From Sipunculus nudus (taxonomy: Eukaryota; Annelida; Sipuncula; Golfingiida; Sipunculidae): DNA of 64,000 nt. The translations under genes were made by a program, and so were the position numbers. The notes under the pieces were generated by a model. The model was not told where the DNA came from. It saw only the letters and a program-made list of their open reading frames with translations, and searched no databases. Below, in pieces: positions 10,401 to 59,900 of this stretch (its first letter is position 1; every line of letters starts with the position of its first letter). The stretch is taken from contig CM049313.1 of NCBI GenBank assembly GCA_026874595.1, forward strand, positions 60,097,159 through 60,161,158, given 5' to 3'.

Positions 10401-13400
10401 AAAAAATGGTGGCGCCACCTGTAACCATGTTTGCACAGTGTCCATCTGTTCATCTGCCTTGGGTTAAAATCACTCATATCTCTGCAGTTAATTGACTAAT
10501 TCACCTGAAATTCGTCATGCATATACATCCTGGATAGCTTTCTTGATTTTATGACAGGGGGCGCCACCTACATTCACATTCACGCTGATGACATCCAAGC
10601 TCATATCTCGGGAACCGTTTGACTGATTGGGCCAAAATTTTGCATGTGTATAGAACTCACATAGCTCTTTATCATACGCAAAACTGGTGGCGCCACCTGC
10701 AACCATTTTTGCACAGCATCTGTCTGTTAGTCTGGCGTGGCCTAAAATCACTCATTTCTCTGTAGTGGTTCGACATAACTGCCTAAAATTTTGCAGGTTT
10801 ATACATCGTGGACAGCTTTCTTGATTTTATGACAGGTGGCGCCACCTACATTCTTGTTAACGCTGCACACATCCAAGCTCATATCTCAGGAACCATTTGA
10901 CCGATTGGGCCAAAATTATGCATGTGTTTAGATCTCACATAGGTCTTTATCATACACAAAACTGGAGGGGTCACCTGCAAAGATTTTTGCACAGTGTTTG
11001 TCTGTTTGTCTGCCATGGGCAAAAATCGCTCATATACATGTAGTGGTTTGACTTTTCTGCCTAAAATTTTGCAGGTGCATACAACTTGGACAGCTTTCTG
11101 GATTTGTGGTAGGTGGCACAACCTACATACACATTTAGGCTGCAGACATCCATGCTAATATGCAACATACCTCACTCTTTTTCCCCTTGCCACTCAATCC
11201 ATGCCTCACTTCACCCGTTCACCTCTGATTTTGGCGGATACATGTAGTCACTTGTCGGTTACCCGTATTCTAGTTTTAAAAGTTTACACATTTTTTCTCT
11301 ATTTTTGAGATATATAAATACAGACTAAATCTTGGCCTGTTGGTTAATCTGTTTGATGCTTCAGTTGAATGGGTATATACTACCATTCTGATGATAAAAT
11401 TTCCTTTTGCGAATCTCTTCCCAGTCAGCTGAGCGTCATGACCCATGGGTCACTTGTCATTCTACAGCATTAGTGCTGTTCAAGTTTTCACGCAAATCAG
11501 TATGTATAGGGATTCATTTTTAGCTCAGCTGACTATAAGTCATCTGAGCTATAGTCATGGTCCATTGTCCGTCGTCCGTCCGTCTGTCTGTCCGTCCGTC
11601 CGTCCGTCTGGATGTCCGTCTGTAAGACTGGCACGTTTCGACACCGTTGGACCTACGAATCTGAATTTCGGCATACAGTTAGATGTCCCCATAATCTCCT
11701 ACCATGCCAAAAATTGGGTCAATAGGACTTCGTTCCTTTGAGATATTAAGGAAAAACCTCAATTTTTTATTAGAAATCTATTTTCACACTTCAGGACTGC
11801 CTAATATCAAAACCACTCATCTGGTTTTCTTCATATTTACCATAAATATTCCTCTATATAGTTCCTATGTACATGCCAGATATTAAGTCAGTATTATATA
11901 ATTTAAAAAAGTTATTGGCCCAAACATAATGCACTTTGTAAAAAAATCAGGAAGATATTTTGTCACTTAAGACCCAAAGTGTTAAAGGTAGGGACTTTTT
12001 TCCAGTAATACAACTTTAAATAATCAAAATTTAATTGTATACCAAAAATTAGATCAAAATCTGTTAAATTTTTTTAAATATTGTCAAAAATATAAAATTG
12101 GTACCTTAAATTTTGCCCAACTTTGGCCATGGCACGTTTTTTTCCTGTAAGTACTGTGGATTTAATTTTCACACCATGTATACATAAGGATTTAATCTGT
12201 TAAAATCTGAAATTTGAAAATAAAAGCTGCAAAATTAGGCTAGTTATTGAATTTTTTTGGAGGCTCTTGTTGTATTCCCTTACATTGTCAAGCAGTCCAC
12301 TTTGATGACTGTAGGTCATTCAGTGCACATCTCTATGCTCCCCAGGCTGTTGACATAATTTTAGATGTCCCCAAAATCTCCTACCATACCGAAAATTGGG
12401 TCATTAGGACTTTGTTCCTTCGAGATATTAAGGAATAAAACTCTGTTTTCCATAAAAAAAGCCATTGTTACACTTCAAGGCTGCCTAATATCAAAACCAC
12501 TGATCTGTTTTTGATCGTATTTAGTATTCACATTCTTTTATACATTTTCTATGAACATACCAAAAATTAGGTCAGTGTTGAGTATTATTTTGAAGTTATG
12601 GGCCAAAACATAATGCAATTTTTTAAAAAATCAGGAAATATATTTACTCACATGAGAATTGCTGAACCTAGAGACCTTTTTTCAGGAATATAACTTTATT
12701 TAATCAAAATTCAATTGTTTACCCAAAATTAGATCTGAATTTTGCAAATTTTTCAAGTTATTAGCATAAATAAAAAACAATACCTTAAATTTTGTCCAAC
12801 TTTGGCACTGTTGATTTAATTTTCCCAGCATATATGCATAAGGATTTAATCTTTTAAAATCTGAACTTTCAAAAGAAATTGATTGGAATTAATAGCTTTT
12901 ATTCATGTTTTCACACACCATGTCAAGTGTTGTTTACATCTAGCCCACCTAGTAGTACAGCCTTCACTTGCATTATGTAACCCACCCCAGGCAGCTTACC
13001 TTGGCCCAGCTTGGCCACTACTAGCAGGCTTCCCCTCGCCCTGCACTCATCCCCCCCCCCCAGCTGGTGCATAAACTAGATGAATGTTATAATTTTTCTG
13101 TATTTTATTTTATTCTTGGACATGCTTCATTTTAGATTTTGTATTGAACCACCAGGGTTACAATGATTAAAGTGTACATTTAATTGTGTCCACAAAGTGG
13201 TGTTTTGCTGTGAAAGTCTGGATGTTCATGAGATAAGTAATTCCTTACTTCAGAAGAGTAAAAACTTCACCAGGTGTGAAATTGACTATTAATTCCAGTA
13301 ATTAATTAAAACTGGGATAGTAATTAGCACAATGATATTGTTTGTCCCTCATTCAACCAACAGTGTGTATACTTTATTTGAAAAGATGTTTTATTTTGTC

Positions 13401-35867: not shown

Positions 35868-35925
35868 ACCAAGTGAAGAGAAAATAATACTGAGCAAAGG
35901 AAAGTTGCCTCAACATGTCGTGTAC
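35868..35925 (+). CDS. RAG1-like gene, first coding exon (ATG at 35914)
   Basis: The ATG in the context tcaacATGtc begins MSCT and ends at donor ACA|gtgagt in phase 0, which is the phase the next exon needs. The exon itself probably starts at a NAGNAG acceptor (gcagcag, 35861-35867), so it would be preceded by a spliced 5' UTR. Other frames through the exon stop or do not join the next exon. Only four codons are coding, so this start is less certain than the downstream exons. Confidence 0.6.
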
Positions 35926-38900
35926 AGTGAGTGGGAATTTATCATTTGTACTTTTGTAGACATATATATATATAAATATGCATAGTTGATCATACATTTG
36001 TAAATATGTGTACATATAATATCAGCATAAAGTCATAACATATTTCACCATGAATGCTAACAGGGTCTTTTATTTTATTTCTTTGTCATTGTATGACTGA
36101 CACAAACATCAATAAAATGATACAATAAACTTACTATAGCTTCCACAAAATATAAAATAGAGAGACTTGTGAAAGGAAATTATTCTATTTTTTATGCTAA
36201 TTTATGCATAACATATTTTCTATGCATCAGTGTCACAGATTACAAGTTGGTTTAGATATGTATTACCTCATTATCAAGATGTCTGCTTTTTGTTTTTTCT
36301 GTGTTTACCCTTTCTTCAGTTGATTTTAGTATATTGAACATGTTCTTAGGAGACAATAAATATAATGTTGGTCTGATTTATACCTATGTTATCCTGGTCA
36401 GTATTGTTTTACCTGCTACAGTTAACTATTGTTATTGTTTTGCTCCTTGGCAGACCTTTATAGGGGTTGGATCTGTGGATGCGAGATGGAGGGAGAGTAT
36501 TTTCATCTCCCTGCCTCCGATGCCCTCTGAACACATGATAAAAGCAAGCAAACCTGTTGTAATGACAACTGCCTGCTCTCTGCTTGTTCCTAATGGACTC
36601 CTATACAAATGGCACATGGCAAAGCTGCGGCCTTACTCGCTAGTCCACCAGGTGAACTTACACATTATTGCTGGAGCATTAGCGCTTGACACACTCAGCA
36701 CACGACTGAAGGACCACTTCATGAATTTGGTAAGTTTGTTTTACATACTCTGTGTTTAAAAGAACAGATATGTTGAGAAATCATAGAATATTACCATTGT
36801 TAACAGCATTTTTCTGCATTCATACTTTTTCATAGTCAACTGTAAAAGTAGATGTTTTATGATAGGTCCTTTTTCTCCTGTCCATCACATAAAAATGATT
36901 CTGTTTTGTACGTCTCTCAGCTTAATATGTACATATTAAAGATCCTATTAAAAGAAGTAGATACTGTTATTGGTTCTGTCATGAAAATTGTATAGAAATA
37001 TTCCAACACCCCTGTTCACCTCATTTCTCGTGATATTTCTTTCAAGGAATGTTTGCCACTGTAAATTAGCTTTCTTCAAAGGAAGTAATGTAGCGATTTA
37101 TTATGATTTAAATAAGGCCATACTTATTTAAATTTTCGTTTCTCAGACCCGCCGACCCTAAGTTGTGACAATTTGGAAAATAAATATAACAGTTACCCTG
37201 TCTTTTTTTTTTTGCCGCCGTTATAAAATGTGTCCATGAGTCGTAATATAAATCCCCTAAAAATGTAAACTCGCAGTCACCTCCTACAAAATGCGACCCA
37301 CACGGCCGAGTCGGTCATTTTTAAGTCACAGCATTTGCCTTGCCTATGGTTAGTGAAACTTTTCCATTGTCTTATTCATGATCGTCTAAAATCTAGGGAT
37401 CTGCGGAGATAAAGATTTCCGTCGGAGATCTTCTGTAAGTCAAATCGTTCAAATGTTCTCTCACATTTCATCACGATCTTACCCGATATCAGTTTTATGT
37501 ATTAAACAGTGTTCTTCTTGTAATGATGGACCACTTTGGTTCGAAAACATTAAAGGTGCTGACTGTAATATATTATATCAGCAGGGATTGTAATATTTTC
37601 CACAAGGTGTCCGAAAATATCTGGCTTTTGAATGGTTCTTCCGAGCTCAGTTTCGGATGCAACTTCCACGCAGGGTCACGAACTATTGTAACATTCTTGA
37701 CATCGCGTGGAAAATCCTCTGTAGACAAGGAATCTTTAGGCCGAAGGCGGAAGAAAAGCCGACTTATTTAAATCTATTCGTTAAAATGCCTGCAAACATG
37801 TGACTACGAGGTTGTGATACGGAAATTCTGGATGAAATCAGCTATTTTCGGTAATTTGGATAACCGATCGCTGTGTGTATGCTTGTAGCATCGAATTTGT
37901 GAGCACTAGAATTGTTGCTCACGGACTATTTCCCGCCATAAAATTACTTGAATGAAACTAAATGTGCATGCATGTAGTATACTATGAATCTCTCGTTTGC
38001 TCTCTTTCTGGGGCTGCTGGGCGAGGTCTCTTTCTGCCAATCGCGCCGAAGCCCTGAAATACCGTCATATGCAAATAAACTCTTAACTCTCAATCAAATA
38101 CTCGCGCAATGGAAATGCTAAAAATAGCACTGGGCACCTGTGTGTTGTTTACAGAGTGGCCAATACCGTGTTATATAAAGCTACCAGGTTATACCGCTAT
38201 TTTAAGGGCTCCGAAGCGTTTATCAAGTGACAGATGTATGAACCTTGTTGCAAAACATTCTGAAATAATGTTCATCAGTATATACTTATGTTTGATATAT
38301 TTGTTTATATTAGCTTGATATTTTCCACCTTGCAGTTGTTAACATTTCTGTGGGGTAAAGTATTACCTCATTTGATATATTTGATTAAATTTCTGATAGG
38401 TATATTTTTACCATATTTGATATATAGTTTTTTTTTTTATTTTGTGTTTCTGACGTTTTTTTTCCAACGATTGACAACAGATAGATCATATCTTAAAGAT
38501 GATTTCATTGATATTTTAAATATAAAGGACTTTGCTTATTTTCTGACTGGGTGGCCCTGATGAATCTTGATATTGCTTAAATGTGCGTTTGTGTTTGAAT
38601 TGCATGTTTCATGGCTATTTTCATTTGCCTGAACTTTCCTTTATTTGTTGTAAGCTTTGTATATCCACTGACCATATAATGTCCTTCAAAATTAACAGTT
38701 AATTTTGCAACCAGTCTCCTGTACAGGTCAGCTGTTTTAGTAAGAAAGTGGAATGATTGGTTTTTCAAAAATGTTAATTGAGTGGAAATGATTATTTTAT
38801 TAATTGTTAATTTAAATTGATTTATTTATTGATTTTTTTTAAGTTTATTTAAAAAGTAGAAAAATCATGATTTTTTTTAAAGTTGATTTTTTACCAGCCC

Positions 38901-41900
38901 TTCCAGAAAGTATTGAGGATATCCTGCAGATACTGAAAATACTTTAGTGCACTTGACATTGAAGAAGGACACATATAGTTCCTATACATTCATTTTTATT
39001 TATTATTCATCATTATTTGAAAATTTATATGGAAAAAAAATTGCACTTTTCATCTTAAAAATTTTGAATTATATTTATTTTTATTTTCCCTCCTCCTCCC
39101 CACCACATTTCATTTCTTCATCCGAGAAACTATTTATTAAATATGTAAGGCCTAAGCATGAAATATATATATTTACTTTGCAATGCTGGGGTGGTGTAGA
39201 TGAGTCTGGAAAGAGTTGCAAAAATTATGGTATCAGTTCAATTGGGCATATCTGTTTATCCATGTAACGTAGGAGGGACGTATCTGTGATGTAACAAACA
39301 TGTGACATACAAAAACCACTGCGATGTCATCACTACAAATCATCAAGTAGTGTTATTTTAGTCCTCTTGTCTTAGGTTGTCACTCGTATGTCCCAAGACT
39401 GTACATCTGTCATAATTCTTTCTGAATTAAACATTAGGAATGCATACACAGGTAATTATTATTTTGCTTTTAAATAATCGCCACATTTGTCAGATTTGCC
39501 TCTGGGGTAAATAAGGGTAAGCTTTACTGCATTATATAAATTTATCACGAAAAATCAGGTAGACAGTGGTGCTGGAATGGAGTGTCTATAGTGAGTTGAA
39601 CAACTTAATGGAACAGGAATATGCTGATCAACTGAACTGGCAAGGGGAATGTTATGCCCTTATACAGCCTTAGGCTCTAATCTGAATTTAATTTTCTTCC
39701 ATTATTTTGTTACTAAGTCATATTTGTACACCTCTTATCAGTTGCTCATGATTTATACATATTATGTCATGTGGAATTTGCTTCTAGGTAAGGCTAGTAG
39801 GCCTTTGATAGTAATGATATATGAATGTACAGTTGTGATATGGTAATTGGGAACACAGGTAAAGAAAATTGGAACAGAGGCAAACGAGAAGCAAGGAGCA
39901 AATAAGGAGAAGTTCTTACAAGGTCATAGCATCGTAAATGTTGATGAGACAGAGGTCATTCCTGTAATCAGAGTTCAGAATGTCAGAGGTCAAGGCAAAC
40001 ACAAAAACCAGGAGGAGCCCAGCCCTCCCTCGGAGAAACCAGCAGGACAGAAGGTGGAGGCAGAAACACAGACAGATGAGGGGTAAGTGACGGCACTGTA
40101 GCAGCCTAGAATTTTACATGTTGTTAAAAAAGGAAGGGTTCTGTAAATCCTGGATGGCGATAAAAGTATGATTTCATTCTAGGTTCAGAGATTACCTTTG
40201 TATTCATAAATTGATTTGCATAATAGAATTTATCTTTAAAATATAATCAACCCTTATTTAAATCCAACCAGGGTTCTTATTATAAATTTAAGTGTTCATA
40301 ATCAAGAACATTAACTCCATTTGAAAAAGTAACAAGTACCACATAATCTCCAATCAAATTTTTTAGCATTCTGTGACAGTTAGCTGGTGCCTGATTTTTA
40401 TCATTGCCCTGGAAATGTTTAATGCCTCATTTGACAGGGATCGGAAACAATCATACATTGAAATAGAGAAAGGACTGTTTGATTAACTCACTTTTTATTA
40501 TGTTTATTTTTGTTTTGCTAGGATCCCTGAGACCGAGAAGGAGCTGTACAAGATGTGTGCCCAGGCTAACAGACGAGAGGAGTTGATGAGACGATGTACC
40601 ATCAAACTACAGGACGAGATCAGCAGCCTCAAACGACAGCTCAAGGATGCCATGAGTAATGCAGACCCACTAGAGAGCTTCATGGTAAATACTCAGTATA
40701 TTAACAAACTTCTAAGGCTGTAACAATTCACTGATGAACTGTTACTTTGTAGTTCAAAGTCAGCTTTTATATATTGTATATTTACACCATTATATGAGTC
40801 CAGGGGATTGGATGATTAACAGGAAAGTTTTGTATTTGGAGCCAATGCGTTTTATCTGATAGACCCATAGCCAAGATAACTACCACAGGGTCTACCTTGC
40901 TATATCAGAGACTCAGAGTCAATGTGTACAGTTCATGAGTAGAACTGGGGTGGAAGACTGTAGTAGACAAAATCTACTAAACTAGTTTCTGGTAAGAATT
41001 TCACAACCCACAAGGTATGAGCAAAATCCCAAGCATGGAAATGAAAACCAGGAAAGCAAACTTGTTTGGATGAGACTTGCATTAATTTATATCAGAACTG
41101 GTTGCTGTTTCATGTTTGTCTTGCATAATTCCAAGGCTTAATGGACCGCTCTTTTTAATGTATTACTGTATTGTTACAGGAGTTGTTCCAGGGAGGGAAG
41201 CCCCAGGATGATACCACACAACAGACACTGACCATCAAACTGAAGAAACTGAAGGCCCGGATCAGTGAACACACATGGTTCCTCAAGTCATACGGCCTGG
41301 AGCTGAGAAAGGTAGAGATGGTAACATTACCAGCGCACAACGTCATCACCGTCAACTGGGAGCACGGGGAGGCAGACAAGTTTATACATGACCTGCGCAA
41401 ACAGCTGGATGAGAAGGCCATAAGCAGTAATGGGTGAGTATTGTCATGTGTCACTTCAGGTAAAAAAGGTCTTCAGGTCTTTTATATATGGTGGCTTTAA
41501 CAAGTCTCAGTAATCAGTATACAAGTCCTACAGTCTTGTTGCCAGATTGTGAGTTCCTGGATCATATGAGATTTTAATAAAGGTATGCTCACTGCAGGTT
41601 CAATTGTTTCCTAATTTTGGGTTCTAAAAAGACTCATTCATATAGATTGAATTTCTATTGATGTGTAGTGCATTACTATCCTCTGCAAATTTTATATTAC
41701 TATTACTAGATAGAAATTAACATTAAAGTGAAAGCACTAGGGGGTTATTATTGGTGGGAAATGCTTTTACAGGTATTTCAAGAGTTATATCTGTTTATGA
41801 ACTCATTGAAGGCATTCATTGGAATGTGATACCATCAGCCTCAGTTATGGCATGGTTGGATCATGGATGTGTGTGATGTCATTGACAGGAATGTGGTGAC

Positions 41901-44900
41901 TTCAGCCTCAGTGAGAGCATGATGTTATGTATGTGTTGTCTTAGAAAGGATTGTGATACTGTCAGCCCCAGTGAAGGTATGGTGTAATGATTGTAAGGTC
42001 ATTGGCTTGTATGTGGTACCTTTAGCTTCAGTGCAGGCATGGCGTGATGTCATTGGCAGGAAATGTGTTGCCATCAGCCTCCTTTAAGGCATAGTGTGAT
42101 TCCATTGACAGGAAATGTGGTACCATCAGCCCCCTTTAAGGCATAGTGTATTGCCATTGACAGGAAATGTGGTACCATCAGCCTCCTTTAAGGCATGGCT
42201 TGATGTCATTGGCAGGAAATGAGTTGCCATCAGCCTCCTTTAAGGCATAGTGTGATGCCATTGACAGGAAATGTGGTACCATCAGCCCCCTTTAAGGCAT
42301 AGTGTAATGCCATTGACAGGAAGTGTGGTACCATCAGCCCCCTTTAAGGCATACTGTAATGCCATTGACAGAAAATGTGGTACCATCAGTCTCCTTTAAG
42401 GCGTAGTGTGATGCCATTGACAGGAAATGTGGTATCATCAGCCAACTTTAAGGCATAGTGTAATGTCATTGACAGGAAATGTGGTACCATCAGCCAACTT
42501 TAAGACATAGTGTGATGCAATTGACAGGAATGTGGTAATGTCAGCCTCCTTTAAGGCAAAGTGTGATTTCATTGACAGATAATGTGGTTCTGTCAGCTTC
42601 AGTAAAGGCATGGTGTGATGTTAATGATGTTACTGACAGCAATGTTGTACCATCAGCCTCAGTGAAGGCATGGTGTGATGTGTGTGATGTCATTGACAGG
42701 GAAAGTGGTACCATCAGCCTCCTTTAAGGCATAGTGTGATGCAGTTGACAGGAATGTGGTACCTTCAGCCTCCTTTAAGGCAAAGAGTGATGTCATTGAC
42801 AGATAATGTGGTTCTGTCAGCTTCAGTGAAAGCATGGTGTGATGTGTGTGATGTCATTGACAGGAATGTTGAACCATCAGCCTCAGTGAAGGCATGGTGT
42901 GATGTAAATGATGTTACTGACAGGAGTTGTTATATTATAGGCAGAAGTGAAGGCATGTTGTGACGTATATGATTTCATTGACAGGAACATGGTACCGTCA
43001 GCAACAGTGAAGGCTTGGAAGGAGAATGAGGAAGAACTCAAAGAAGGAGAGGTACAGCTAGAAAACGCTAACAAGAAACCCCTCGTCCTCGGCTTCAACA
43101 CTGCATCCAAGTTTGAACAGCTCAACGAAGATCAGAAACAACAGGTGTTTGAGGTAGGTCTTTCTATTGTGTAATATACTACATTTATATAGGAAATTCC
43201 TCTTTAGTTATGTTTTATTAATTTTTAGCTCAGCTGACTGTAAGCCGATCACCCTTTGTCCGTCATCCGTCTGTCTGTCAGTCCGTTAACCTGGCACAAT
43301 TCGTAACCACTGGACCTAGAAACTTGTTACTTGACATTCTGAGAGGTCCATGAAAAATCTCCTTGGAAACTAGAAATTAGGTCTCTGTTACCCATATCCT
43401 TCAAGCTATTGGGCCCCAAAGTACCCCCCAGAATAGTCAAAAATTTCATACAAAAACTTCAATATCTCATTAACTACATCACTGATGGTCATGATTTTTG
43501 AATACATATTGATCATGAGATGTTCCATCAGTTCCTGCAGACTGGTGGCGCCACCTGAATTTTTCAATTTTTTACGAATTGTTTTCTCTATTTTTGAGAC
43601 CTTTAAAAATGTGAACATTTGTTTACAGGGCACAAATCGTAAAGACTGGACCTAGAATCTTCATTCTTGACACACTGAGAGACCTATGAAAAGTCTCCAT
43701 GGAAACCAGAAATTATGTCTCTGTTATCCATATCCTTCAAGCTATGGGGCCCCAAAATAACCCCCCCCCCCCAGGAATAGTCAAAAATTTCATACAAAAA
43801 CTTCAATATCTCATTTACTACATCACTGATGGTCATGATTTTTGGCATACATATTGATCATGAGATGTTTCATCAGTTTCTGCAGACTGGTGGCGCCACC
43901 TGTATTTTTCGATTTTTATGTCCCCGCCACAAAGTGGCCGGGGCATATAGTTTTACCCATGTCCGTCATTCCGTCCTTCTGTCATTCCGAAATCAAACAG
44001 TTGTACGGACTTTTTTTTGCAATGCCTGCAGATATTGGCCTGATTTTTGGTGTGTGGCCAGATATTGACCAGTTACAGATTGAGTTCGCATTTCGTCCTG
44101 GTTGACCTACTTTTGACTGTTTAACGGCTCCTGAACATAGAAAATTTCATGTAAAACATAAATTTTCATGACAAATACACTTGTACAGACTTTTCTTCAC
44201 AATACCTGCAGATATTGGCCTGATTTTTGGTGTGTGGGCAGATAATGACCAGTTACAGATCAAGTTCACGTTTTGTCCCAGTTGACCTATTTTTGACCGT
44301 TTGACGGTGCTCTAACATAGAAAATTTCATTAAAAGGTGCATATGTATGGATTTTTTTTCGCAGTGCCTGCAGTTACGGGCCTGATTTTTGGTGTGTAGG
44401 CAGATAATGACCAGTTACAGATCGAGTTTGTGTATTCTCTCAGTTGACCTACTTTTGACCATTTGACTGCTCCTGAACGTAGAAAGTTTCATGAAAAATA
44501 TAAATTTTCATAACAAATGCATATGTACTGACTTTTTTTCCTCAATGCCTGCAGATACCACCCTGATTTTTTATGTGTGGGCACATAATGACAGTTACAG
44601 ATCGAGTTCGCGTTTCATCCCGGTTGACCTACTTTTGATTGTTTTACGGCTCCTAAACATAGAAAATTTCATGAAAGACAGAAATTTTTATGGAAAATGC
44701 ACATGTATGGACTTTTTTTCACAATGCCTGCATATACTGGCATGATTTTGGTGTGTTGCTTGATAATGACCCGTTACAGATCGAGTTTGCTTTTTGCCCT
44801 TGTTGACCTACTTTTGACCATACGACACCTACTGAACTTAAAAAAATTTTCAAAATTTTACAAATGTTTCTAATTTGCCCAAGGCGGGGGCATTCGTGTC

Positions 44901-47900
44901 GTTCCGACACATCTAGTTTACGAATTGTTTTCTCTATTTTTGAGACCCTTAAAAATATGAACATCTGTTAACTGGGCACAAGTCTTAAAGACTGGACAGA
45001 GAATCTTCATTCTTGACACACAGGGAGACCCATGAAAAGTCTCCATGGAAACTTGAAATTAGGTCTCTGTTACCCATATCCGATGAGCTATGGCACTCCA
45101 AAGTACAGCTCAGAATAATGGAAAATTAGATACAAAAGCTGAAGTATCTGAACAACTAATGCAGAGATCATCATAATTGTTTGCATGGATACTGATCATT
45201 GAGTGTTTCATCAGTTTCTGCAGACTGGTGGCACCATCTGTATTTGTTCGGGTTTTTTTACGAATTTTTTTCTCAATTTTTGAGACCTTCAAAGATATGA
45301 ATATCTGTTAACAGGGCACAAATCATAACAACTGGAATCTTCATTCTTGACACACAGGGAGACCCATGAAAAGTTGACATTGAAACCTGAAATTAGGTCT
45401 CTGTTACTCATATCCTTTAAGCTGTATGGCTCCAAAATACCCCCCCAGAATAATGAAAAATTTGATACAAAAACTGCAGTATCTCAATAACTACAACACT
45501 GATGTTCATGATTTTTGGCATACATATTGATCATGAGGTGTTCCATCAGTTTCTGCAGACTTGGTGCGCCTCCTCTATTTTTTTCAAATTTTTACGAATT
45601 TTTTTCTCTATTTTTTGAGACCTTAAAGATGTTATCTGTCAACAGGGTACAAATCGTAACAACTTGGACCTAGATTCTTCATTTTTGTAATGCAGGTAGA
45701 CCCATGAAAAGTGTCTGTGGAAACCTGAAATGAGGTCTCTGTTTCCCATATCCTTCAAGCTATAGGACTTCAAAGTATCCTTCAGAATAATGGAAAATTT
45801 TATACAAAAGCTAAAGTATCTGAACAACTAATGCAGAGATCACCATGATTCTTTGCATGGATATTGATTATGGAGTGGTTCATCAGTTTCTGCAGACTGG
45901 TGGTGCAACCTATATTTAATTCAATTTTTCGAATTTTTTTCTCTATTTTTTTAGACCTTTTAGGATTCTGTCATCTATTAACGAGGCACAAATTGTAACA
46001 ACTGGACCTAGAATTCATACTTGTCATGCAAGGAGACCGATGAAAAGTGTCTGTGGAAACCTGAAATTAGGTCTCTGTTACCCATATCCTTTAAGCTATA
46101 GGACTCAGAAGTATCCCTCAGAATAATGGAAAATTTGATACAAAAGCTGAAGTATCTAAACAACTAATGCAGAGATCACCATGATTCTTTGCATGGATAT
46201 TGACCATGTGTTTTTGAAGACTGGTGGAGCCACCTGTATTTTTTTATGCATTTTTTCTCTGTTTTTGAGATATATAAATACAGACACAATCTTGGCCTGT
46301 TGGTTTATCTGTTTGATGCTTCAGTTGAATGGGTATATACTACCATTCAGATGATAAAATTTTCTTTTGCGAATCTCTTCCCAGTCAGCTGAGCGTCATG
46401 ACCCATGGGTCACTTGTTTAGACATTTATCACTAATTATTGAAAGTGAATGATGGACTGATATTAGTTGTTATTATGAAAGAAAGGATAATTTTGTGTTC
46501 AACTGAGTTTTAAAGGAAGAAACACAGTTGCATTAAACCCACAGGAAACATTGTTTGAAACATGTTGATGCTAAACCTCCTTTGGAAGATTGAATATTTC
46601 AGACAAGAATTTGCAAAGCCAAACCTACTAATTAAATGTAAAGCTACAGATGTTTTACAGTGCAGCTGGATATTGGCATACGAGGGTAAAAAACAAGAAT
46701 AACTAGCAGTATATACCAGATGTGACATTGCATGAATATCCTTGTTTCCCCCAGACAAAGTTTGGGGATACTATTGTTTCATGACGGTCCAACAGCTGCC
46801 GCAGATAAGTTTTGTTTGCTCAATAACTCAAAATATATTTCACAGATCTTCACCAAACATAACATGTACATAGATTTGGGTTAAAAGGACGAAGCCTATT
46901 TAAAAAGGGGTAATGACCTTTACTAGGAGAGTGACATTGTCCTTGAATTGCCACCTATTATCCTTTTCTTGATTTCATGCCTTTTAACACCCCCATCATT
47001 GCCACTTGGCAGTACTGTGAGCATTATAAGTCAAAAACTAAAAGACGGATTTCTTTCATATTATGCATAAACATAGATATGGGTTATGGAATGAGGTATG
47101 TTTAAATTAGGGTATGACCTTTCCTAAGTGAGTGGCCTTGACCTTGAATATTCACATATCTGGTGAAAAATATTGTTTCCAAGTTGATTGATGTGTCTTT
47201 CTGAAAATCAAAATGAAAGACGTCAGATGGTAAATTGTTGAAAGGGACTAGTGACCTTCAAGGTCCCACCTGAAGAAACCCTGGTGGCTTGCCAAGAATT
47301 ATTATATGCTTCTTAAGATGGGAGGGGGGGGGGGGCCCTTTTTGAAGGGGGGATTAATTGTCTGGGGATACTATGGCATCTGTGATGCCAATCAATGTCT
47401 AGTTCTACAATGATTGTTAGATGAAAAAGTGCTTGAATATGTATGAAATGATTGTTTGATTAAACTTGCATGAATATCTGTATGCAATGATTGTTAGATT
47501 AAACTTTTCATGGATATCTATGTACAATGATTGTCATATTATTTTCAGTTGTTGCACATTCTGGATAAGTACGGGATCACTGGGGAGTGCTACCATGACC
47601 TTGTTATGACGGAGGTCGGGAAGAACCTGCCAAAATCCTACCTAATCAAGCAGGCTTACGCCTTCCTCAACAGTCGCTTCAAGATCAAGTTCACCCCGGG
47701 ACAGAATGCCGGGGCACAGCAGTCATTCACTGCTGTCCTGACAGAGGAAATCAAGGAGTACATCAAGGAAAATAAAACCTGCAAGAAAGTTGAGGTGAGT
47801 GTTTGATTGTATCAGGCAAAGAAGTTTGTTTAGAGAGTAAAATACCTATTTCACATGGCAAATGGAAACTGTTTTTAATCCACATTGAATCTGTTTTAGA

Positions 47901-50900
47901 CAATCACATGGCCATTAAACATGGATCAGATCTGTTTTCACCAAGCCATTTTCAATCAACATTTGAATATACCAGGTTTGCTATTTTTCAAAATAGTGCA
48001 TCACCCCTTCTACCATGTCATGTACAATAAAGTGTCATTACGACAAATGGTCTATCATGTCATCACCACGCATGGTCTACCATGTCATCACCACGCATGG
48101 TCTATCATGTCATCACTATGCATGGTCTACCATGTCATCACCATGCATGGTCTAGCATGTCATCACCATGCATGGTCTATTATGTAATCACCATGCATGG
48201 TCTATCATATCATCACCACATATGACCTATCATGTCATCACTATGTATGGTCTATCATGTCATCACCATGCATGGTCTGTTGTGTCATCACTCTGGATGC
48301 TCTATTGTGTCATCACCAAGCATGGTCTATTGTGTCATCACCACCATGGTTTATTGTGTCACACATGGTTAATCATGTCTTCACCACGCATGGTCTATCT
48401 TGTCATCACCACGCATGGTCTATCATGTCATCACTATGCATGGTCTACCATGTCATCACTATGCATGGTCTAGCATGTCATCACCATGCATGGTCTATTA
48501 TGTAATCACCACGCATGGTCTATCATGTGATCACCACACATGATCTATCATGTCATCACTATGCATGGTCTATCATGTCATCATCATGCATGGTCTATCA
48601 TGTCATCACAATGCATGGTCTGTTGTGTCATCACCACACATTGGTTATTGTGTCACAAATGGTTTATTTTGTCTTCACCATGCATGGCGTATCATGTCAT
48701 CAACAAGCATGGTCTATCATGTCATCACCATGCATGGTTTATTGTGTCACACATGGTTTGTTGTGTCTTCACCACGCATGGTGTATCATGTCATCACCAT
48801 GCATGGTCTATCATGTCATCACCACTCATGGTCTATTGTGTCATCACCATGCATGTTTTTTGTGTCGTCACCAGGCATAGTCTATTTTTTCATCACCACG
48901 CATAGTTTATAGTTTCATATGACTAAACCTTTTTGGTTTATATGCTATGTGAAAGACCAGCCTAGATCTGCAATCTGCATGGGCCAAAATGCTTTGGTGC
49001 AGTTGCCGAAGGAAAGGGGTATTAGACAGGTTACTGAAAACCTTGATTCTGTCTAGAATGTCTCCCAGGATTTAAATACCTTACCTCAACATTAGCTCTG
49101 AATTAAGTCAATAAAAGTCCTGAAATGTCCTTGTTGAAGACTTTATCCTCAGGCATCTTGAATAAAAGAAAAGAGATAGAGATGAAATATGCAAGCAAAC
49201 CTTTACCAGTTTCACATAGATGATTTTTGAAAAATGTAAATATTTGACTCATATAATCTCTATAAAGTGATTGTCTTTTTGTGCAAGTTTGTTTGATTTG
49301 TGATCTGCATTGGATTTCAAAGTATAAAAATAATTTTATTAAATAATAATTTTTATTGATATGTGCAAGGAAACATAATCCTTGAATGAACATCTGTGTA
49401 TAGATTGTAACTCCTGATAATTCACTTGTTTATTTCTTAAAAAAAAGACGACAGGAGAGAATTGGATTTCAGAGTAATTGAGTTTTCAATCACTTCCAGG
49501 TTAAAGTGGTTGGATATGGAACCCCTGTGTCCAGAAGCACCCACGTGGTCTTGTTAGGATTCACACTAATTGACAAAGTCAGGCCCATGATCTCAGCATC
49601 ATCAGGTAATTTTATTTATATTTATACATAAATGTAACAGTTAATCCATATTGCATATTGTGAGTACATGGTAATCCAAAGCATTAACAATGTATTATCT
49701 TCTGAGAAGTTAACATAATTGATCAGAATAATTAAGCCTGTGTTGACTGATTCATGGAGTCCTTCAAAATTATAAATCTTTTATATCATCTTGTGAGTTT
49801 TTAAAAAAAAATATGGATCAAAATCCTGACATTAGTGCATTAATTCTGGGAAAAATTAGTCAAATACTTCAGTTCATTACTGTGTTTATCAATGATGTTC
49901 TACATGTTCAGAGAACTTTGTCTTTTATGTTCATTGGTATTCATCCCTGCAATTTCCGAACAAGTCACACTCTACAATTAAACCAGATAATAAAAGAGTA
50001 CTTTTTCCAGTTATACAATAAGGAAAAATATTCCAGTCCATGTACAACCATATTTTAAATGGATCAGCAGTGTATTTCTCCTTCGCTGTTTCATATTTCA
50101 TTTGGGACTGATTGGTGTGTGCTCATCCTGTGACATCTTTTCTTGTACTATATGTGTAATACTTTGGTGATTTATTGGCCCCTGCTTCCTTGAAACAGGG
50201 GACATTGATTACGGTTTGTCTGTCTGTCCCTCTGGCTCTCTGTTTGTCTGTCCGTCAGGTTTTTTAGCTCAGCTGACTTTCAGTCATGCTTGGCTAAAGT
50301 GATGGGTCTTTGTACGTTGTCCTTCCGTCTGTCCATCAGCTGGCCGTCTGTCCATTAGCAGGGCACAAATCGTAACCATAGGGGCTAGGGTCATTAACCC
50401 TATGCAGTCTTAGAGGTTGTAAACAGATCTCCTTGCAAACCTGAAATGAGTTCACTGCGACATATATTCTCGAAATTTCCGGGTGTGTTTGCAACTTTGC
50501 ACCCCCAGAAATAATTCTTTAAGCCAAAATTTTCATCCAAAACTTTCCATCTTTCACATACAGCTCACCTACCAATAGGGGAAGAACCATAATTATTTTG
50601 AGATCACAAAGTCAAAGATCAAGGTCACAGGACCCACTTCTTCGAAAAGCCTTTAGATGAATTTTTAGCCAAACCTTTCATCCCAATTCTTTGATCTTTC
50701 ACATATAGCTCACCTGCTAAGTGGGAGAAAAATCCTATAGATTTTAAGGTCACAAGGTCAGAGGTCAGGGTCACAGGATCCACTTCTTTGAAAAGGTTGT
50801 GGACAAATTTCAAGCTAGACTTTTCATTCCAAAACTTCCAGCACTGATATGGCTTCTCTGTCAACAAGGGGGAAGACCTATTGATTTTGAGGTTAAAGGT

Positions 50901-53900
50901 CAAGTTCACAGCACCCACTTCTTGCGTGGAGTCATTTTCAGGCCAACGTTTCAATCTATTCCTGCCATCTGTCATATATGGCTTGCCTACCAATAGGACA
51001 AGAAGCCTATTGATGTTGAGTTCAAAAGGTCAAAGATCACAATATTAAATTGTTCTAAATGCTTGTGAACATATTTCAAGTGAAACTGTTCAGCCTGAAC
51101 CTTCAGTCTTTGCATTTGCCACATCTATGCAACACTCAATTTGATTCAAACTTCATATTTGTAGGTCTTTTTGCTTGAAGAAATAACTTATTGTTTTTTG
51201 GGTCAGCTGGTCAGGAGGTTAAAGGTTGCAGGTCAAAGTTATTCACTCATTGCTTGCCAAATAATTACAATTAAGTGGTTACCGTAAAATCTCCACATAA
51301 AACCGCACTTCCGATTAAAACCGCACCCAGACTTGGCCGAAATTCCAGGTGAGACATCGCGAGGGGCTCAAATACTAAGAACCCCCCTTTAAAACCGCAC
51401 CAACTTTTGCTACGGAATGATTTGACAAAAGACACAATCAAGCTATCATCTAGAAATGAACACGCGTAGGTTGCGACTCGGCCATTCCTGTCCACTTTTA
51501 AATTCCTTGGGCATTTTATTTAAACACATCATAACACTTTTTTGCAGGGTCACTCAAGCATGAAGTTTGGGAAGACGTAAGGGCCGGTGAACCTCTGCCT
51601 GTTTATACAGATTTTATATTCCGTGCCCTATTCTTGTTTGCTACTGAATTGTCATTATATTTTGAAAAAAAAATTTCTGCTGATCCATTTCAAGTCACTG
51701 TATATTTTAATTCTAAAAATCTTTGATGAAAATTCCATTTTCTGGAATTACTCGGAAGATTCTAATCATTTTCATACCGGTTACTTCGGTATTATCATCG
51801 TCACATCGTACGTTGACATCGCTCCATGTCACAATTTGCTGGCTCGTTTGAAAACATCGCTGGTCAACTTAACTAAATATCGAAGTAATTGAAGTTACCT
51901 TGTCGAGATACGCACGTATAGGAAACACGACACTTGATAACGAGTGATTTTAAGGTAAAATTAAAGTGGCCAGTCGGGGTAAGCAAGTTTTTTTTTCCTG
52001 AAGAAAAGTTTCCGTGTGGGGAGCCATTTTGTCAAGGCAGTGTTCACGCAAGGCACGCTGGGACGAAATAGGTGGCTGTTCTGTTTACCACCCACCGCGT
52101 ACAGCCGTTCAAAATATTCTTAGCAGAATACTGGGGCGTTTCAGCATATGGCGGCACTCAAACTTGATTTTAAAATGATCGTCTGCCATTGTGTGACTCC
52201 TTACGATGTCAGCTTTTTATTCATTTTACGTTTTAAACAAATAATCATTGCTAAATAATGCCCCAAATGGGTTTAAAGTAGGCTTTTTTTTCAATTTTGC
52301 TTGACCATGCCCAACGAAGTGGGTCGCTGTGTGTTACAGCAGGGTTGTTGTAAACGTATTATTTGGTGACAATTACCAAAATTTTATAACAAGTTATATA
52401 TCACACGAAAACTAATCAGCAATATTTAATTTATAAATAACAAATAATCGTAAATAATACATTTACAAACGGCTCCCATGCATGCGAGAATGCTGCTAAG
52501 AACGGCCTTCGAAAGTTGCAATATTATCGCCCACTCGCCGGCCCCAAAACCATGTCTGTCAGGAAGATATCCAGGAAACCCTTCTAGTATAAACTGCACA
52601 GTGCTTTCAGGAAATCAACCTGATTTCAAGATTTTGAATTTCTTGATTTATCCGCGGTTTTAAGTGGAGATTTTACGGTAGTAGTTACCCATCATTTAGA
52701 AAGAATCCAGTTGATATGTGGGAAAAAGGCCAAGGAAAATGTCAGAGATATTCACAGTAACTTATTTTGCGGACCATCTTTATTTTTCTTGTATATATAA
52801 CCTTTGCACTCCAACTGGTACAGCTCACAGTGTGGCTGTAATTGTGAGTGATGTGGTGACATATGACTCCCTTTTGTATCGGCCTATTAAGTGATAATGC
52901 TGAGTGATATGTACCTCATTACTGCATAACAAAAACACTGTTTCCGGAATGATTCAGCCAGGCATTAAGACTATGAGAGTATAGTATTGAGGTTTAGCTA
53001 CTGATTCATAAGATAATGGGAACATTTTGCAGTTTATTTTATGGAATCATAGCAGTATACTTAGTTCCCTAGATATCTGAATATTTTTATATTAATCACC
53101 AGATAAAATAGCAAGTGTTTGTTCTAATAATATGTGGATGTGTACCTGGATTTAGGATGGCTTTTTTTATTACAAGACTCTTAGTCATGCTTTCTGCATT
53201 TCTTTTCTTTCAGGTTTTGCAGTTTACCTAATAAAAATATTAGACTTACACTTTTTTTTTTAGCCCTCAGCCCCTAGACTGATGGGCTATTGTCGTCACC
53301 CAAGCTGTCCGTCCGTCCGGCGTCCGTTAACTTTTACCTTGTGAGCGGGATATCTTGAAAAGGATTCACCATCAGAATTTTATTTCCTCGGTAAAGATGT
53401 ATATCGATAAAATCTCGGTCAAGTTCGAAGATGGGTGACCTTGACCTAATTTTCTACATTTTAGAGCTGATTATAGAAAAACACTTAGATGCTTATTACT
53501 CAGGAACCATTTGGTGGATTTTCACAAAACTTACTATGATTATTGGGACTGATAGTCTGTACCTGCTATACAAGTTTGGTGGCGCCACCTACAATTTCTG
53601 ATTTTTAATGAATTTTTTTCGGATTTTTCAAATTTGGGCTTGTGAGCGGGATATCTCAAAAAGGATTCACTGTAAGAATTTTATTTTTTCGGTGAAGATG
53701 TATATTGACAAAATCTCGGTCAAGTTCGAAGATGGGTGACCTTGACCTATTTTTCTACGTTTTAGAGCTGATTATAGAAAAAACATTTAGAAGCTTATTT
53801 CTCAGGAACCACTGGATGGATTTTCACAATACTTACTATGATCATAGGGACTGATGGTCTGTAACTGCTGCACAATTTTGGGGGCGCCACCTGCAATTTC

Positions 53901-56900
53901 TGATTTTTTATTGAATTTTCCTTGGATTTTTCAACTTTGGCCTTGTGAGCGGGATATCTCTAAAAAGATTCACAATAGGAATTTTATTTCTCTGGTGAAG
54001 ATGTATATCGACAAAAATCTCGTTCATGTTCGAAGATGGGTGACCTTGACCTACTTTTCAAGGTCACAGAGCTAATGATAGAAAAAAACTTAGAAGCTTA
54101 TTTTTCAGGAAGCATTTGGTGGATTGTTATGAATCATGGTACATACCTCTCCATTTTAAATTTATAACTGAGACATGTACAGATATACATCCATGTGAGA
54201 ACAGATATTTAGTACTTGTTACTGTTACCACCTCTAAACACTTCTTTTGGCTGAGGGCTTTTGTCAGCTTCTGCTGATATTCTAGTTACATATGCATATC
54301 TATAAATCTGATTGAGGGCCTGAACATGCCTTTTGAATTGTTTTGGACATTCATTACTTTAACATCCTTTGGAGAATTTGCCACAAGTTAGGTCTTAAAT
54401 TGGAGGATGTGTGATATCAAATGTCAGACTTGTTAGAAATCCATTATGTCTGCCAGCCACCTTTGAAATCCTTTTGTCAGTGCAGTTTCAGTGATTTTCT
54501 TCAATGTTTTGTCCCATTTAGAGAATGTTTGTTGTCTGATTTCAGACCTGTCAGATGTCCAATATGGCCACCAGGCAACCATCTTTAAATTCCTTCTGAT
54601 CATATTATCTCAAGAACTGTTTAAAAGAATGCAGTCGGATGTATATTAATGTAATCTTGCAAAGGATTGGGTCAAATATTTCTTAAAAAATATTACTATC
54701 ATTTATAAAAGTTCAGTACAGTTGGCTTGTGTTGAATAAAAATTCATACAGAAGCACCTGTTCTCAATAATTCTTGCATGGATTTCCTTGATTTTTGCTA
54801 TATATTTTGATCTTATATTTGGCCTGTGTGGTGTTCCTTTTGAGACTGACAGGTATCAAACAAGCTATGGAAATAGTTCCTGATAGCTCAACAATCATAC
54901 ATTTTCCTCAGACAATCAATTCACTGTGTTTTAACCAGACATTGGTGATATATATTTCTGTTATCATAGAAAATTTCAACAAATTGGCAAATAGGTTCTT
55001 CAAAGATTTGACTTGAAGTTGTGAATCTAAGCCAAAGATGTTGCAGGTCATGCTTGGCAGCTGAGCGTCATGACCAATGGGTCACTTGTGTTTCCATATG
55101 ATAACTTTCCTAAGAAATATCTGATTTCATTCATATTTGGGTCAGTGACTGCTCTTATGCATACCTTGGTTGGAATTGGTTTTTGAGTGTGACTCACAAG
55201 ATAATAAAGCAAAATGATATTTCATTTTTGATATGATGAATCAGCACATTTAGTTTCCTAACCACCAACATATGTGGCTAGCAGAGGACATAAATTCATT
55301 GAATTTGCTTGTTTCTTCAGGATTCCGTACTATTGCTGGCTTCAATGGGCCAGAGACATACCAGAACATTACAGAGGAGTTCACACAGGTCATTGAGGAG
55401 ATTAACAATGTTGTGAAGGCCGGCAAGATCAACATCGCTGGCAAAGATATAGAGGTGGAGATGTTCCTGAGTGGTGACTACAAGGTAAACTACCATATGA
55501 TCTCCATTGATAGCTGCAGCCTTAATTGAAAACTATACTTCTGAATTTTGTGCATGACTTTTTTTATGGAAGAGATATCAGAAAACCTTTTGTAAAGATA
55601 AACTTATAAACATTGTAATCACATGAACAGTTTGAACACTTTATTTCCTTTGTTAAAGTCTTTTAAAGTTTGATAAATATGAGTTATTTGGTTTCAGTTC
55701 CTAACCAGTGTGCTTGGCCTGAAGTCCAGTGAAAACTACTGCATCTACTGCAAGATGAATAAAGACCACAGGTTAGTGCAGACTGCACTTGCTCATTACA
55801 TACTGCGTTTTGTGGTGAAGGCAAGCTTAGAAATATCTTATTAACAATAAAAAACCAAGGAGCTTTGGCCTATTTGGTAATATCCTTGGCCAGGTGTTTA
55901 AAAGATATGTTTTGCTATAAGCAAAAAGAAGCTTTAGTCCATTTTTTAAATCTGTGCACATGCATATTGCTCTAAGCAAAAAGAGCACATAATAACATGC
56001 TTCAACTTGAATGAAACCATAGGTATTTTGAATTTTAAGGCAGTCTCAGTATAAAAGTCATCACATTCCTCTTTCACAATTGTTTTAAATTTAAGAATTT
56101 GTAAAAACTGAAAAAAAAATAATCATTATTCAGTGTATTTTATGAATTTTAAACTTACTCTCATTACAGATTCAAAGAAATCAATAAATTTTGTGTTTTT
56201 TTAGACAAGATGCCAGCAAACCAAAAGACCACTATACAGTCAGCGCCAGGAAGCGAACACTGGCTGATGCCAGGCAGCTCAGCAAAACAAATAAGTACGG
56301 CATGAAGCACCCACCTCTGCTAGACATCGAGTTTGATCATGTCCTGATCGACGACTTCTGTGTCCTGTCCCAGGTCATGGACATCCTGATCGATAATGTT
56401 ATCAACGACTGCATCTCATTGGATGAAGAGAGCAAGGAGAAGGACTCTGAGGAACACACGCAGAAGCTGGTCGAGGCCATCCACAAAGCCGGCATCGGAT
56501 TCTTCCAGGTGATTAATCCCATTGATATTATCTCGGAAAGAAATTTGCAAATCATATCTTTGTTAAGACTATAAATTTTTCTAGAATTACATTATTTACA
56601 AAATCATATCAAATATCCAGTAGGGGTAGGTTACTAAAGATTTGGGTACAGGTTTGGATTATAATGGGCATTCTTTGGTGCAATTTTGAATAATAATACA
56701 CTCATATTTGTATACATGTAAATAATATGGTTGATGGAACCTTACACCAGTCAGTATCAGAGAGGGAATTTTAAAGTAGCCCAGGAACAGTCATCAAGAG
56801 GATGCACTTTAAGAAATGCAGGTATGATCATACGCAAAATTCTGTTTGTGAAGATTCATGAGAGAATTATTGTTTATCATTTGTATAAACCTGCTAGCAC

Positions 56901-59900
56901 TGTAACTGATTGTGGGTGAGCTGACACACTGTTACAAACAGAGCAAAGCATCAGTAGATATAATTTCTTGTTACAGATATGGAAGGCTGGTGACAAATGG
57001 CAGTGGACAACCCCGCTTGCAGCGTCACAGAAGCGCACTCTGCTGGAGAAGCTACCTACATCCTTCCCAAAAGTCCTACGTCCAAAAACAGGGACAAAGG
57101 TTGCTCGATTGTGGAGGGTAAGAGCTGACCACTACTTGACTGATTCGCGAATTTTTTCTTTGGAACTGCATAGAAAGTGTGAAACCTCAAGAAAAATGAA
57201 TGTTCATTAAAGAATAACTGGAGATAACAATATATATCTTATGACAGGCTATGTTTCAAAAAGATATATGATGTTGCTAGCTTCCAAGACCAGATGGTTT
57301 ACTATATACTGTGATCTTTCTGATATTTCCCTGCTGTTTTTTTAAGCTCAGTTGACTGAAAGTCATCTGAGCTTTAGCGATCACCCTTTGTCCGTCATCA
57401 GGCAGTCTGTTAACCTCTGCATCCTTAAAATTTTTCCTCAGAAACCTACAATTAGGTCATTGTGACCGAGAACAAGTATATACAAATTACCAGATTTCTC
57501 AGTAAAGACTAAATGGCTTGTTATTTTATTTGGCGTGCTTATGGGTCTTAATGAAGTTAAGCTAATATGCATGAATGATGATGCCACCTACATTATCCTG
57601 CCTATGCAAGGACATATTGTCAACAGGTCAGTCTGCTGAGCGTCATGACCCATAGGTCACTTGTTATATTCAATTATGTTGAGCTAAGTATTATCTTGCA
57701 TGATTCTAAATGAGAGCGTTGAATGTATCAGAAACTCAGAATTAAATTTTATCAATGGTTTCTTCAGGTAGTATGCCTCAGAAGTTTTTTACTTCTTTTT
57801 CAGGAATTTAAGTTCATCATGGGAGCACTCTCCTCTGACAAGGTGACCGGCGATGAGCTTTATGATAAGGTAATTAACTGATAAAACAGATTTAATACTA
57901 ATTTATTCAGATTCATATGCAGTATTACATTTCATTCTATTTCATTGAGCAAATACTCTGTAAAATGTGCAGAAGCGTATTTTGCTTTACTGCAAAAATT
58001 GGTCAAGGACTTGCAAGGCAATAAGTTCAGACTGTCTACAAAGAGACGTAGAGAATTTAGAATAAACTTTAACATATCTAGAATTAAAGACCAAAATATG
58101 TCACTTGAGCTCACATGTCACTACTAATGACAAATGGAAACTTTGCAAATGAATTAATCTTTGTTAAAATGGAAGGCATGCATTGGTCAATTTTCTTGCT
58201 TAAGAAATTTATTATAAGTTTATTAATGCATGAATTGTTACTGGAGCTAAGTAAATACTTTTAATATCCTGCTTTTAAAATATGTAAGCAGTTACACTTA
58301 CTTTTAAGAATGAAAATAAATAACAACTGGATTGGTACATTTACATAGTTATCCTGTGTCTTAATGCTAAATGGTTGGTTTTAGAGGACAGATATCATAG
58401 ATAAATATAAATGCTCTTGATAACCATAATAAAAAACTTGCTTGAAGACAGCCTTTTGTCAAAATGGAAGACATGGGTCAGTTTTATAGTTTCAGCACTT
58501 AGTTTTAGCTATGAATACTTTATAAAGATTTTGACTTTAATAAAAAATATAATTCTGTAACAGATTACAAATTCAATTTCTCCTCATAGCTTTGATCAGT
58601 AATGCAAGGATGATATTAAATTTTGATGTGGGTATGTTCACCTGCTGTAGTGACTGAAATACTTAAAATGATTAAGGCCAAAAAAAATTAAAGGTATGGT
58701 TCTCAGGCACCGCCCGCATCAATTTTAAACCCCCGCATCAAAACTTTTTATTTTGATTTTCAACAAAAACTTTCCAATTTTGAGCTGCTGTCGCTCCCAT
58801 AATTCTTTCAAGAAGATAAAACCATACAATTTCCTTAGTTTTGTAGTGCTTTCACTTATTTAGCAAAAAGAAACTGTTATTTTCATGCTTTTCCCTTATC
58901 ATTTGACATTTTTTATCGAAACATACCAAAAAATTTAAAATAAAAAAAGCACCCGCCCGCATTGATTTCTGAAAAAAAGTGCCTGAGAACCATACCTTTT
59001 TTTTATTTTGGCCTAATAACTCAAATATATTAAACATTTCATGTCTTCAGAATTTGTTTCCAGTTACTCTTCCATAAAAGAAATGAAAATATATGATAAA
59101 TGGCAGTTACTGCATGGTAAACCTGTCTCAGAGCAATGGATGGCTGAGCATTTGTAGATACAATACTTGAATGTTACAAGACACATTTTTCATCTCTGCA
59201 GTCCAAGAAGTGGTTGGAGGAGTTTGTCAGCCTGGGTAAGGTGAACAAGTTGGAGGGCTATGAGCCAGACCGTGTGACCATGTACATGCACATGTTACCC
59301 TACCATCTGCCAATCTTCAAAGACAAGTATGGCAACCTGAAGCCATACACAGGGCATGGTCAGTTCCATTCTTATAACTTTATTGTTAGTACAGTGCAGA
59401 GTAAGGTTTGCAGTTGTCTGTTGTCCAAATGAGTTATAAAAAGGTATCTGAAATGATTAAACAGGAGCTGAAATATTTTTTATGAACATTTATCTAGATA
59501 TTGAAATAAAAATGAAATTATGAAAAGTTCTGAAGATTTTATGCAGTAATAGGCTCAGATTATTGATAGGAAAATGTTGTTGTTACTCATACTTTTGACT
59601 AGCTCGTGCCTCTGCAAAACAATGGTTATATACAAATTGTTGATAATGATTAAAACTTTGACCATGTTGACATATTATTGTATTATTTTAACAGGAGTTG
59701 AGGTGTCCAACAATGCTGTCAAGATGTCATTTTTCCGGCGCGGGAACAGGAATAACCCCATCACTGACATGATCCAGTGGGAGAACAGACAGTGGCTTAC
59801 AGAGGTATTGATGGGCAAACGTCGAAGCCTGATGAAGAGGGCAGCTAATGCAGTGTTTGGTTCACCCTCTTCGACCAGTACGCCAGCCAAACGAGTGTGT

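Follow-up and report, generated by a model that had tools for sequence, protein, structure and literature searches.

A Sipunculus nudus gene with a RAG1/Chapaev-superfamily transposase core and a tyrosine at the likely position of the first catalytic aspartate

The standard example of a transposase taken into host use is RAG1, in which catalysis has been retained. Its RNase H-type fold is held by a C2/H2 zinc site and has roles in DNA binding and assembly. In the two-metal mechanism of the DDE enzymes, loss of the first catalytic aspartate (D1) should abolish cleavage. Kapitonov and Koonin unite Transib, TransibSU, Chapaev and Chapaev3 as a single superfamily, assign vertebrate RAG1 to its TransibSU clade and describe RING fingers in two Chapaev subgroups (PMC4411706). 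Majorek et al. treat DUF1280 proteins as putative Chapaev transposases forming one clade with RAG1 (PMC3985635). Molluscs are also known to have RAGL transposons whose catalytic residues are conserved (PMC7204232). Relatives of transposases with an incomplete catalytic apparatus have been described too. The PgmL proteins of Paramecium are domesticated transposase relatives without a complete triad, one of them with two of the three aspartates, and an architectural role in a complex with the active enzyme was proposed for them (PMC6143343); they belong to the PiggyBac family of a ciliate, and their interaction with the active enzyme and the need for them were demonstrated there, whereas any such partnership is presumed for the gene presented here. 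Sea urchin PlRAG1Lb is an immobile RAG1-like gene, argued to be domesticated, in which a section of the catalytic RNase H domain is missing (PMC9885083); it is a true RAG1L with an 18-residue section missing, whereas our gene has one residue changed. Papers on Hydra viridissima (PMC7642931), N-RAG-TP (PMC8355894) and bivalve transposons (PMC10294476) contributed nothing that settles the matter, and no description of the present gene was found among the literature matches listed, as judged by title or the start of the abstract and mostly outside subscription papers.

The gene lies in a 64,000-nucleotide stretch of the S. nudus assembly GCA_026874595.1 (contig CM049313.1, positions 60,097,159 to 60,161,158, forward strand), hereafter the window, in whose numbering all its coordinates are given (Table 1). 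A model anchored on splice sites joins 15 coding exons into a protein of 1176 residues, with a single stop codon that is the terminal one, at 60869. All 14 introns are GT-AG with consistent phases, and over about 25 kb the 3531 coding bases are interrupted by neither a stop nor a frameshift, in agreement with the original prediction that the whole frame is open. Residues 838-1176 form an acidic C-terminal tail with a net charge of -40, rich in E, A, S, T and P. The window also carries tandem repeats: intron 7 holds a minisatellite of about 35 copies of a 25-base unit (48047-48910), and long-period repeats (about 280-340 bases) lie in the upstream part of the window (6017-7657 and 9762-11161) and in introns 6 and 8 (44917-46208 and 53329-54125).

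Table 1. Coordinates in the window of the coding exons and of the residues assigned to catalysis and zinc binding
Feature	Position	Strand	Basis or remark
Whole gene, coding span	35915..60869	+	splice model, 15 coding exons
Exon 1, coding part MSCT	35915..35926	+	splice model; start codon picked by eye
Exon 2	36454..36729	+	splice model; single occurrence in genome
Exon 3	39859..40082	+	splice model
Exon 4, charged, possible coiled coil (by eye)	40522..40684	+	splice model
Exon 5	41180..41433	+	splice model
Exon 6	42985..43153	+	splice model
Exon 7, core (residues 366-837) begins	47549..47794	+	splice model; core is the stretch as treated here
Exon 8, strand of the putative D1 position	49500..49605	+	splice model, D1 motif scan
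Tyr454, putative D1 position (D600 of mouse RAG1)	49515..49517	+	TAT; restricted motif scan
Exon 9, ends FLSGDYK	55321..55484	+	splice model; relatives elsewhere in genome
Asp536, D2 (D708 of RAG1)	55476..55478	+	codon GAC; DUF1280 D2 motif
Exon 10 with C553, C556	55698..55771	+	splice model
C553 / C556, zinc C2 pair (C727/C730 of RAG1)	55740-55742 / 55749-55751	+	alignment, RAG1 layout
Exon 11	56205..56508	+	splice model
Exon 12	56977..57117	+	splice model
Exon 13	57804..57869	+	splice model
Exon 14 with H763, H768	59202..59358	+	splice model
H763 / H768, zinc H2 pair (H937/H942 of RAG1)	59289-59291 / 59304-59306	+	alignment, RAG1 layout
Exon 15: Glu788, then acidic tail	59695..60869	+	splice model
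Glu788 (E962 of RAG1)	59700-59702	+	RAG1 E3 motif, hhalign

Equivalents of D2, of the zinc C2 and H2 pairs and of E962 occur in the order in which RAG1 has them. D2 was located by a DUF1280 motif, which scores 42.5 at D536 and 12.0 at the next place; with the RAG1 D2 motif, D536 is outside the best six placements. Of all positions in the protein, E788 gives the RAG1 E3 motif its highest score, 28, and the runner-up reaches 10. The spacing of the window gene, Y454-82-D536-17-C553-3-C556 ... H763-5-H768-20-E788, may be set against D600-108-D708-19-C727-3-C730 ... H937-5-H942-20-E962 in mouse RAG1 and D-70-D-19-C-3-C ... H-5-H-17 or 21-E in L012, a DUF1280 relative from the same genome. The H-4-H-19-E arrangement is thus exactly that of H937, H942 and E962 in mouse RAG1, and the CxxC stands 17 residues past D2 in the window gene and 19 in RAG1. 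The claim that the motifs neighbouring D1 are intact is borne out by motif scores, hhalign and spacing, with D2, E3 and the CC/HH zinc ligands all kept.

Exon 8 reads VKVVGYGTPVSRSTHVVLLGFTLIDKVRPMISASS, and codon 454 within it encodes tyrosine. Local alignments to DUF1280 and RAG1 miss Tyr454 (core residue 89), as those that could have reached it start at core residue 117 or beyond, and D1 was therefore placed by motif and spacing. The motif was built from eight 11-mers, six from DUF1280 proteins, one from mouse RAG1 and one, with its start padded by one residue, from L083, a RAG1L locus of the same genome. With the D1 column masked it was scanned over the 80 positions that precede D536 by 51-130 residues, an interval wide enough to include the D1-D2 spacings of both RAG1 (108) and L012 (70). 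Position 454 scored 8.0, and none of the other 79 exceeded 2.12. Without a positional limit, 454 ranks 4 of 462 in the core and 7 of 1166 in the whole protein with the DUF1280 11-mers, and 14 of 462 and 36 of 1166 with the RAG1 11-mers; it is not unique there, and hence the placement rests on motif and position together. By that measure Tyr454 is clearly the best placement of D1 within the zone where D1 should lie, more than chance would give, and the original prediction of an Asp-to-Tyr change at this residue stands, with the slight correction that the mouse RAG1 string is ESCDGMGD, containing D600, and not CSDGMGD. Two multiple alignments were set aside for this purpose: a full-length MAFFT alignment failed to bring exon 8 into register with the GGDHGG motif, and a trimmed one, in which GYG meets GGDHG, was discounted because the pieces had been cut to a common start. 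Among relatives D1 is an aspartate, in a GGD or CGD motif, at 29 of 30 DUF1280 loci surveyed out of 35 matches, many of them near identical and so not independent, the thirtieth (L052) having no readable motif; it is also an aspartate, in GGDGMGD, in L083, the sole native RAG1L read.

It should be considered that the gene may encode a working nuclease or transposase, the tyrosine codon being a rare allele or an assembly error, or another acidic residue having taken over from D1. Retention of D2, E3 and the zinc site would be expected of such an enzyme, and of the other aspartates between residue 366 and D536 (372, 383, 473 and 526), D473 stands 63 residues ahead of D2, a distance close to the 70 residues between D1 and D2 in L012. 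However, D473 does not rank among the six top-scoring positions for the D1 motif. Nor was an Asp-bearing alternative exon found: a scan of the two introns flanking exon 8 for 70-180 bases between AG and GT, which recovers exon 8 itself, gave 22 and 79 open, phase-compatible candidates, none with [GSC]D[GHS]. As codon 454 adjoins no homopolymer either and no other copies of the gene were found, we regard a working enzyme as very unlikely.

The kinship of the core was examined by profile comparison. Against a profile of DUF1280 sequences from its own genome, hhalign aligned core residues 121-271 with a probability of 92.6, E 4.5e-7 and a score of 57.4; the profile holds 10 of the 12 family sequences, L038 and L051, which both contain GGDHGG, being left out for a VW.K spelling at the start of D1. 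None of 200 shuffles reached that score (maximum 23.8), and the reversed sequence gave 14.5. Against mouse RAG1 593-1007 the score was 21.4, a value reached by 6 of 200 shuffles, with 19.3 for the reversed sequence; the top alignment runs for 37 residues without a gap and pairs H763, H768 and E788 with H937, H942 and E962. When the genome was searched with the mouse RAG1 core, the window gene was absent from the 37 matches at E <=1. Pfam returned nothing over cut-off for the window protein, its best being four sub-threshold matches (E 0.024 to 0.12), with no match to DUF1280 (PF06918) at E <=10, and NCBIfam gave one non-significant match for residues 1-837 (E 0.27). A search of the PDB by sequence with the core found two matches at E <=10 (E 0.16 and 1), both to unrelated proteins and neither a RAG1 or Transib chain; the N-terminal part had none at E <=1, and neither Pfam nor the PDB search by sequence recognised a DNA-binding domain in residues 1-366. 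The missing PDB match says little, because L012, clearly a DUF1280 protein, likewise has none at E <=10.

These comparisons support a putative transposase core of the DDE (RNase H-type) kind, belonging to the RAG1/Transib superfamily when this is taken broadly. The nearest relatives found for it are, by profile score, the DUF1280/Chapaev transposases, which form a clade of their own within the superfamily. The original label of a RAG1/Transib-type protein accordingly holds at the level of the superfamily, but direct similarity to RAG1 is weak, with 6 of 200 shuffles scoring as well and the PDB matches unrelated. Chapaev/DUF1280 proteins share the residue order D..D..CxxC..HxxxxH..E and align from just past D1 through D2, the CxxC and the next stretch; the window gene differs from them in its 15 exons, the absence of a close copy, the tyrosine at D1 and the extra acidic tail. 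Unlike the RING-bearing Chapaevs it has no RING that Pfam recognises and falls below PF06918 recognition, and unlike RAG1, RAG1L and TransibSU, with which it shares the zinc-site and E3 spacing, it shows no significant direct sequence match to that group. That the protein is not a DDE protein at all and resembles one by chance would agree with the sequence searches of Pfam, NCBIfam and the PDB, none of which gave a significant match, but no shuffle came near the DUF1280 score, the reversed sequence fell from 57.4 to 14.5, D2, CxxC, HxxxxH and E stand in order with RAG1-like spacing, and a clear DUF1280 relative is equally without a PDB match; we find a chance likeness barely credible.

The distant matches to the core in the same genome include several frames of a repeated family (L011-L018 and L020), some of them long, and a second group (L019, L022 and L023); Pfam DUF1280 was matched by three scanned frames that span the region (E 3.5e-15, 2e-13 and 6.1e-23). 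A DUF1280 search of the genome gave 35 matches, 34 of them over the Pfam cut-off, and several of the multicopy relatives contain stops. Multicopy DUF1280 (Chapaev) transposons bearing a RING were seen, some with long open frames (L012:3-632 and L012:724-2751, with L011, L016 and L018 alike); the best PDB match of the L012-type N-terminal RING is the RING of RAG1 (1rmd, E 3.3e-5), followed by TRAF6 (5.1e-5) and BRCA1 (2e-4). RAG1L is present too, at other loci: of the 37 matches to the mouse RAG1 core the best has E 7.1e-62, and six extend over 400 residues or more with 33-37% identity, all but one of the six being stop-free. L083 (G000 C2:3873423-3874658) keeps GGDGMGD, CTLC and SEGSEAGN. An exon-like frame resembling exon 9, L076 (G000 C5:9813391-9813564, minus strand), scored 53, a value reached by none of 500 shuffles (best 49), and has NKEG in place of the SGD of D2; it is perhaps a second dead relative. 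Searches for relatives in viral and prokaryotic contigs gave 11, 93, 286 and 127 pattern matches, none of which was confirmed.

Copy number was assessed in the species' own assembly (1.43 Gb, 153 contigs), where only the best candidates are scored and weak copies may be missed. The DNA of exon 8 has one match in the genome, itself; the N-terminal 366 residues have five, every one an own exon; and the core has 24, of which nine are own exons and 15 lie elsewhere at E >=0.0026. As far as these searches show, the gene is single copy and without a close paralogue. No inverted repeats above the control level were found in the 10 kb preceding the gene or in the 3.1 kb between its end and that of the window, where eight weak matches stand against 13 in the control. 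GC3 of the coding sequence is 0.57, against a GC of 0.37 in the two introns around exon 8. The GC3, the tail and the lack of inverted repeats above control fit a resident gene, without proving selection, and the locus is probably a host gene. One alternative is that the locus is a dying copy: an old Chapaev-like gene would be drifting after the loss of catalysis, and its frame would have stayed open by chance or for want of time. The open frame could indeed be recent luck, and just one of the three catalytic residues is changed. Yet 3531 coding bases in 15 exons have stayed intact over about 25 kb, every intron still GT-AG, where several multicopy relatives have acquired stops, and GC3 is high relative to the neighbouring introns; we consider a dying copy unlikely.

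A further reading overlaps with the one we prefer, namely that the gene belongs to an ancient metazoan family of host genes, with GDG retained by many species and altered solely in this lineage; cleavage of transposon ends may then not be the role of the family. In its favour are uncharacterised cnidarian and chordate proteins which we take to have GDG in the place of Tyr454. A provisional consensus for such proteins found its best genome matches in the window gene (E 5.6e-12 and 2.3e-11) and then in DUF1280 copies (from 7.5e-9), but as it was composed after the window had been read it is biased towards the window protein, with which it is 46% identical. An ancient family is possible, though we hold it to be the less probable case.

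What has been found for the gene is the pattern sought in a dead, domesticated transposase: a catalytic residue lost, as judged by motif and position, an intact frame, no close copies found and no inverted repeats above control. The explanation we favour, and think reasonably probable, is an intron-rich host gene derived from a transposase near Chapaev that has lost D1 and acts as a non-cleaving DNA-binding or architectural protein. Its origin would be a transposase of the wide-sense Transib superfamily (Transib, TransibSU/RAG1 and Chapaev), nearest to Chapaev (DUF1280), to whose core the acidic C-terminal tail would have been added. The RNase H-type core appears to keep D2 and E3 together with the C2/H2 zinc ligands, which should stabilise its fold, and with Tyr454 in place of the first metal-binding aspartate, two-metal DNA cleavage should be impossible; going by that mechanism, the protein would have lost catalysis. 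It would most likely act by binding DNA, by oligomerising with itself or with related active transposases, or both. Its role might be architectural, in partnership with another protein, or that of a factor in chromatin or transcription, or it might restrain transposition. All of these activities are presumed here, and that the protein keeps DNA binding or synapsis without cleavage, as had been suggested at the outset, can reasonably be inferred. We favour a non-cleaving, DNA-binding or partner protein because of the apparent loss of D1, the fold that should remain and the precedents of PgmL and PlRAG1Lb.

More speculatively, and in our view rather improbably, the locus could be a conserved host gene in which loss of D1 converted a Chapaev/RAG1-superfamily transposase to a non-cleaving subunit, acting as a partner or a blocker of RAG1L and RING-Chapaev elements in its own genome. 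The long open RAG1L and Chapaev frames in the same genome are possible targets of such a restraining or partner role, and if this were true the gene would be a natural dominant-negative or architectural counterpart to a RAG-type recombinase. An intact relative that lacks one catalytic carboxylate and keeps its zinc site would show that this superfamily has been put to use beyond cutting.
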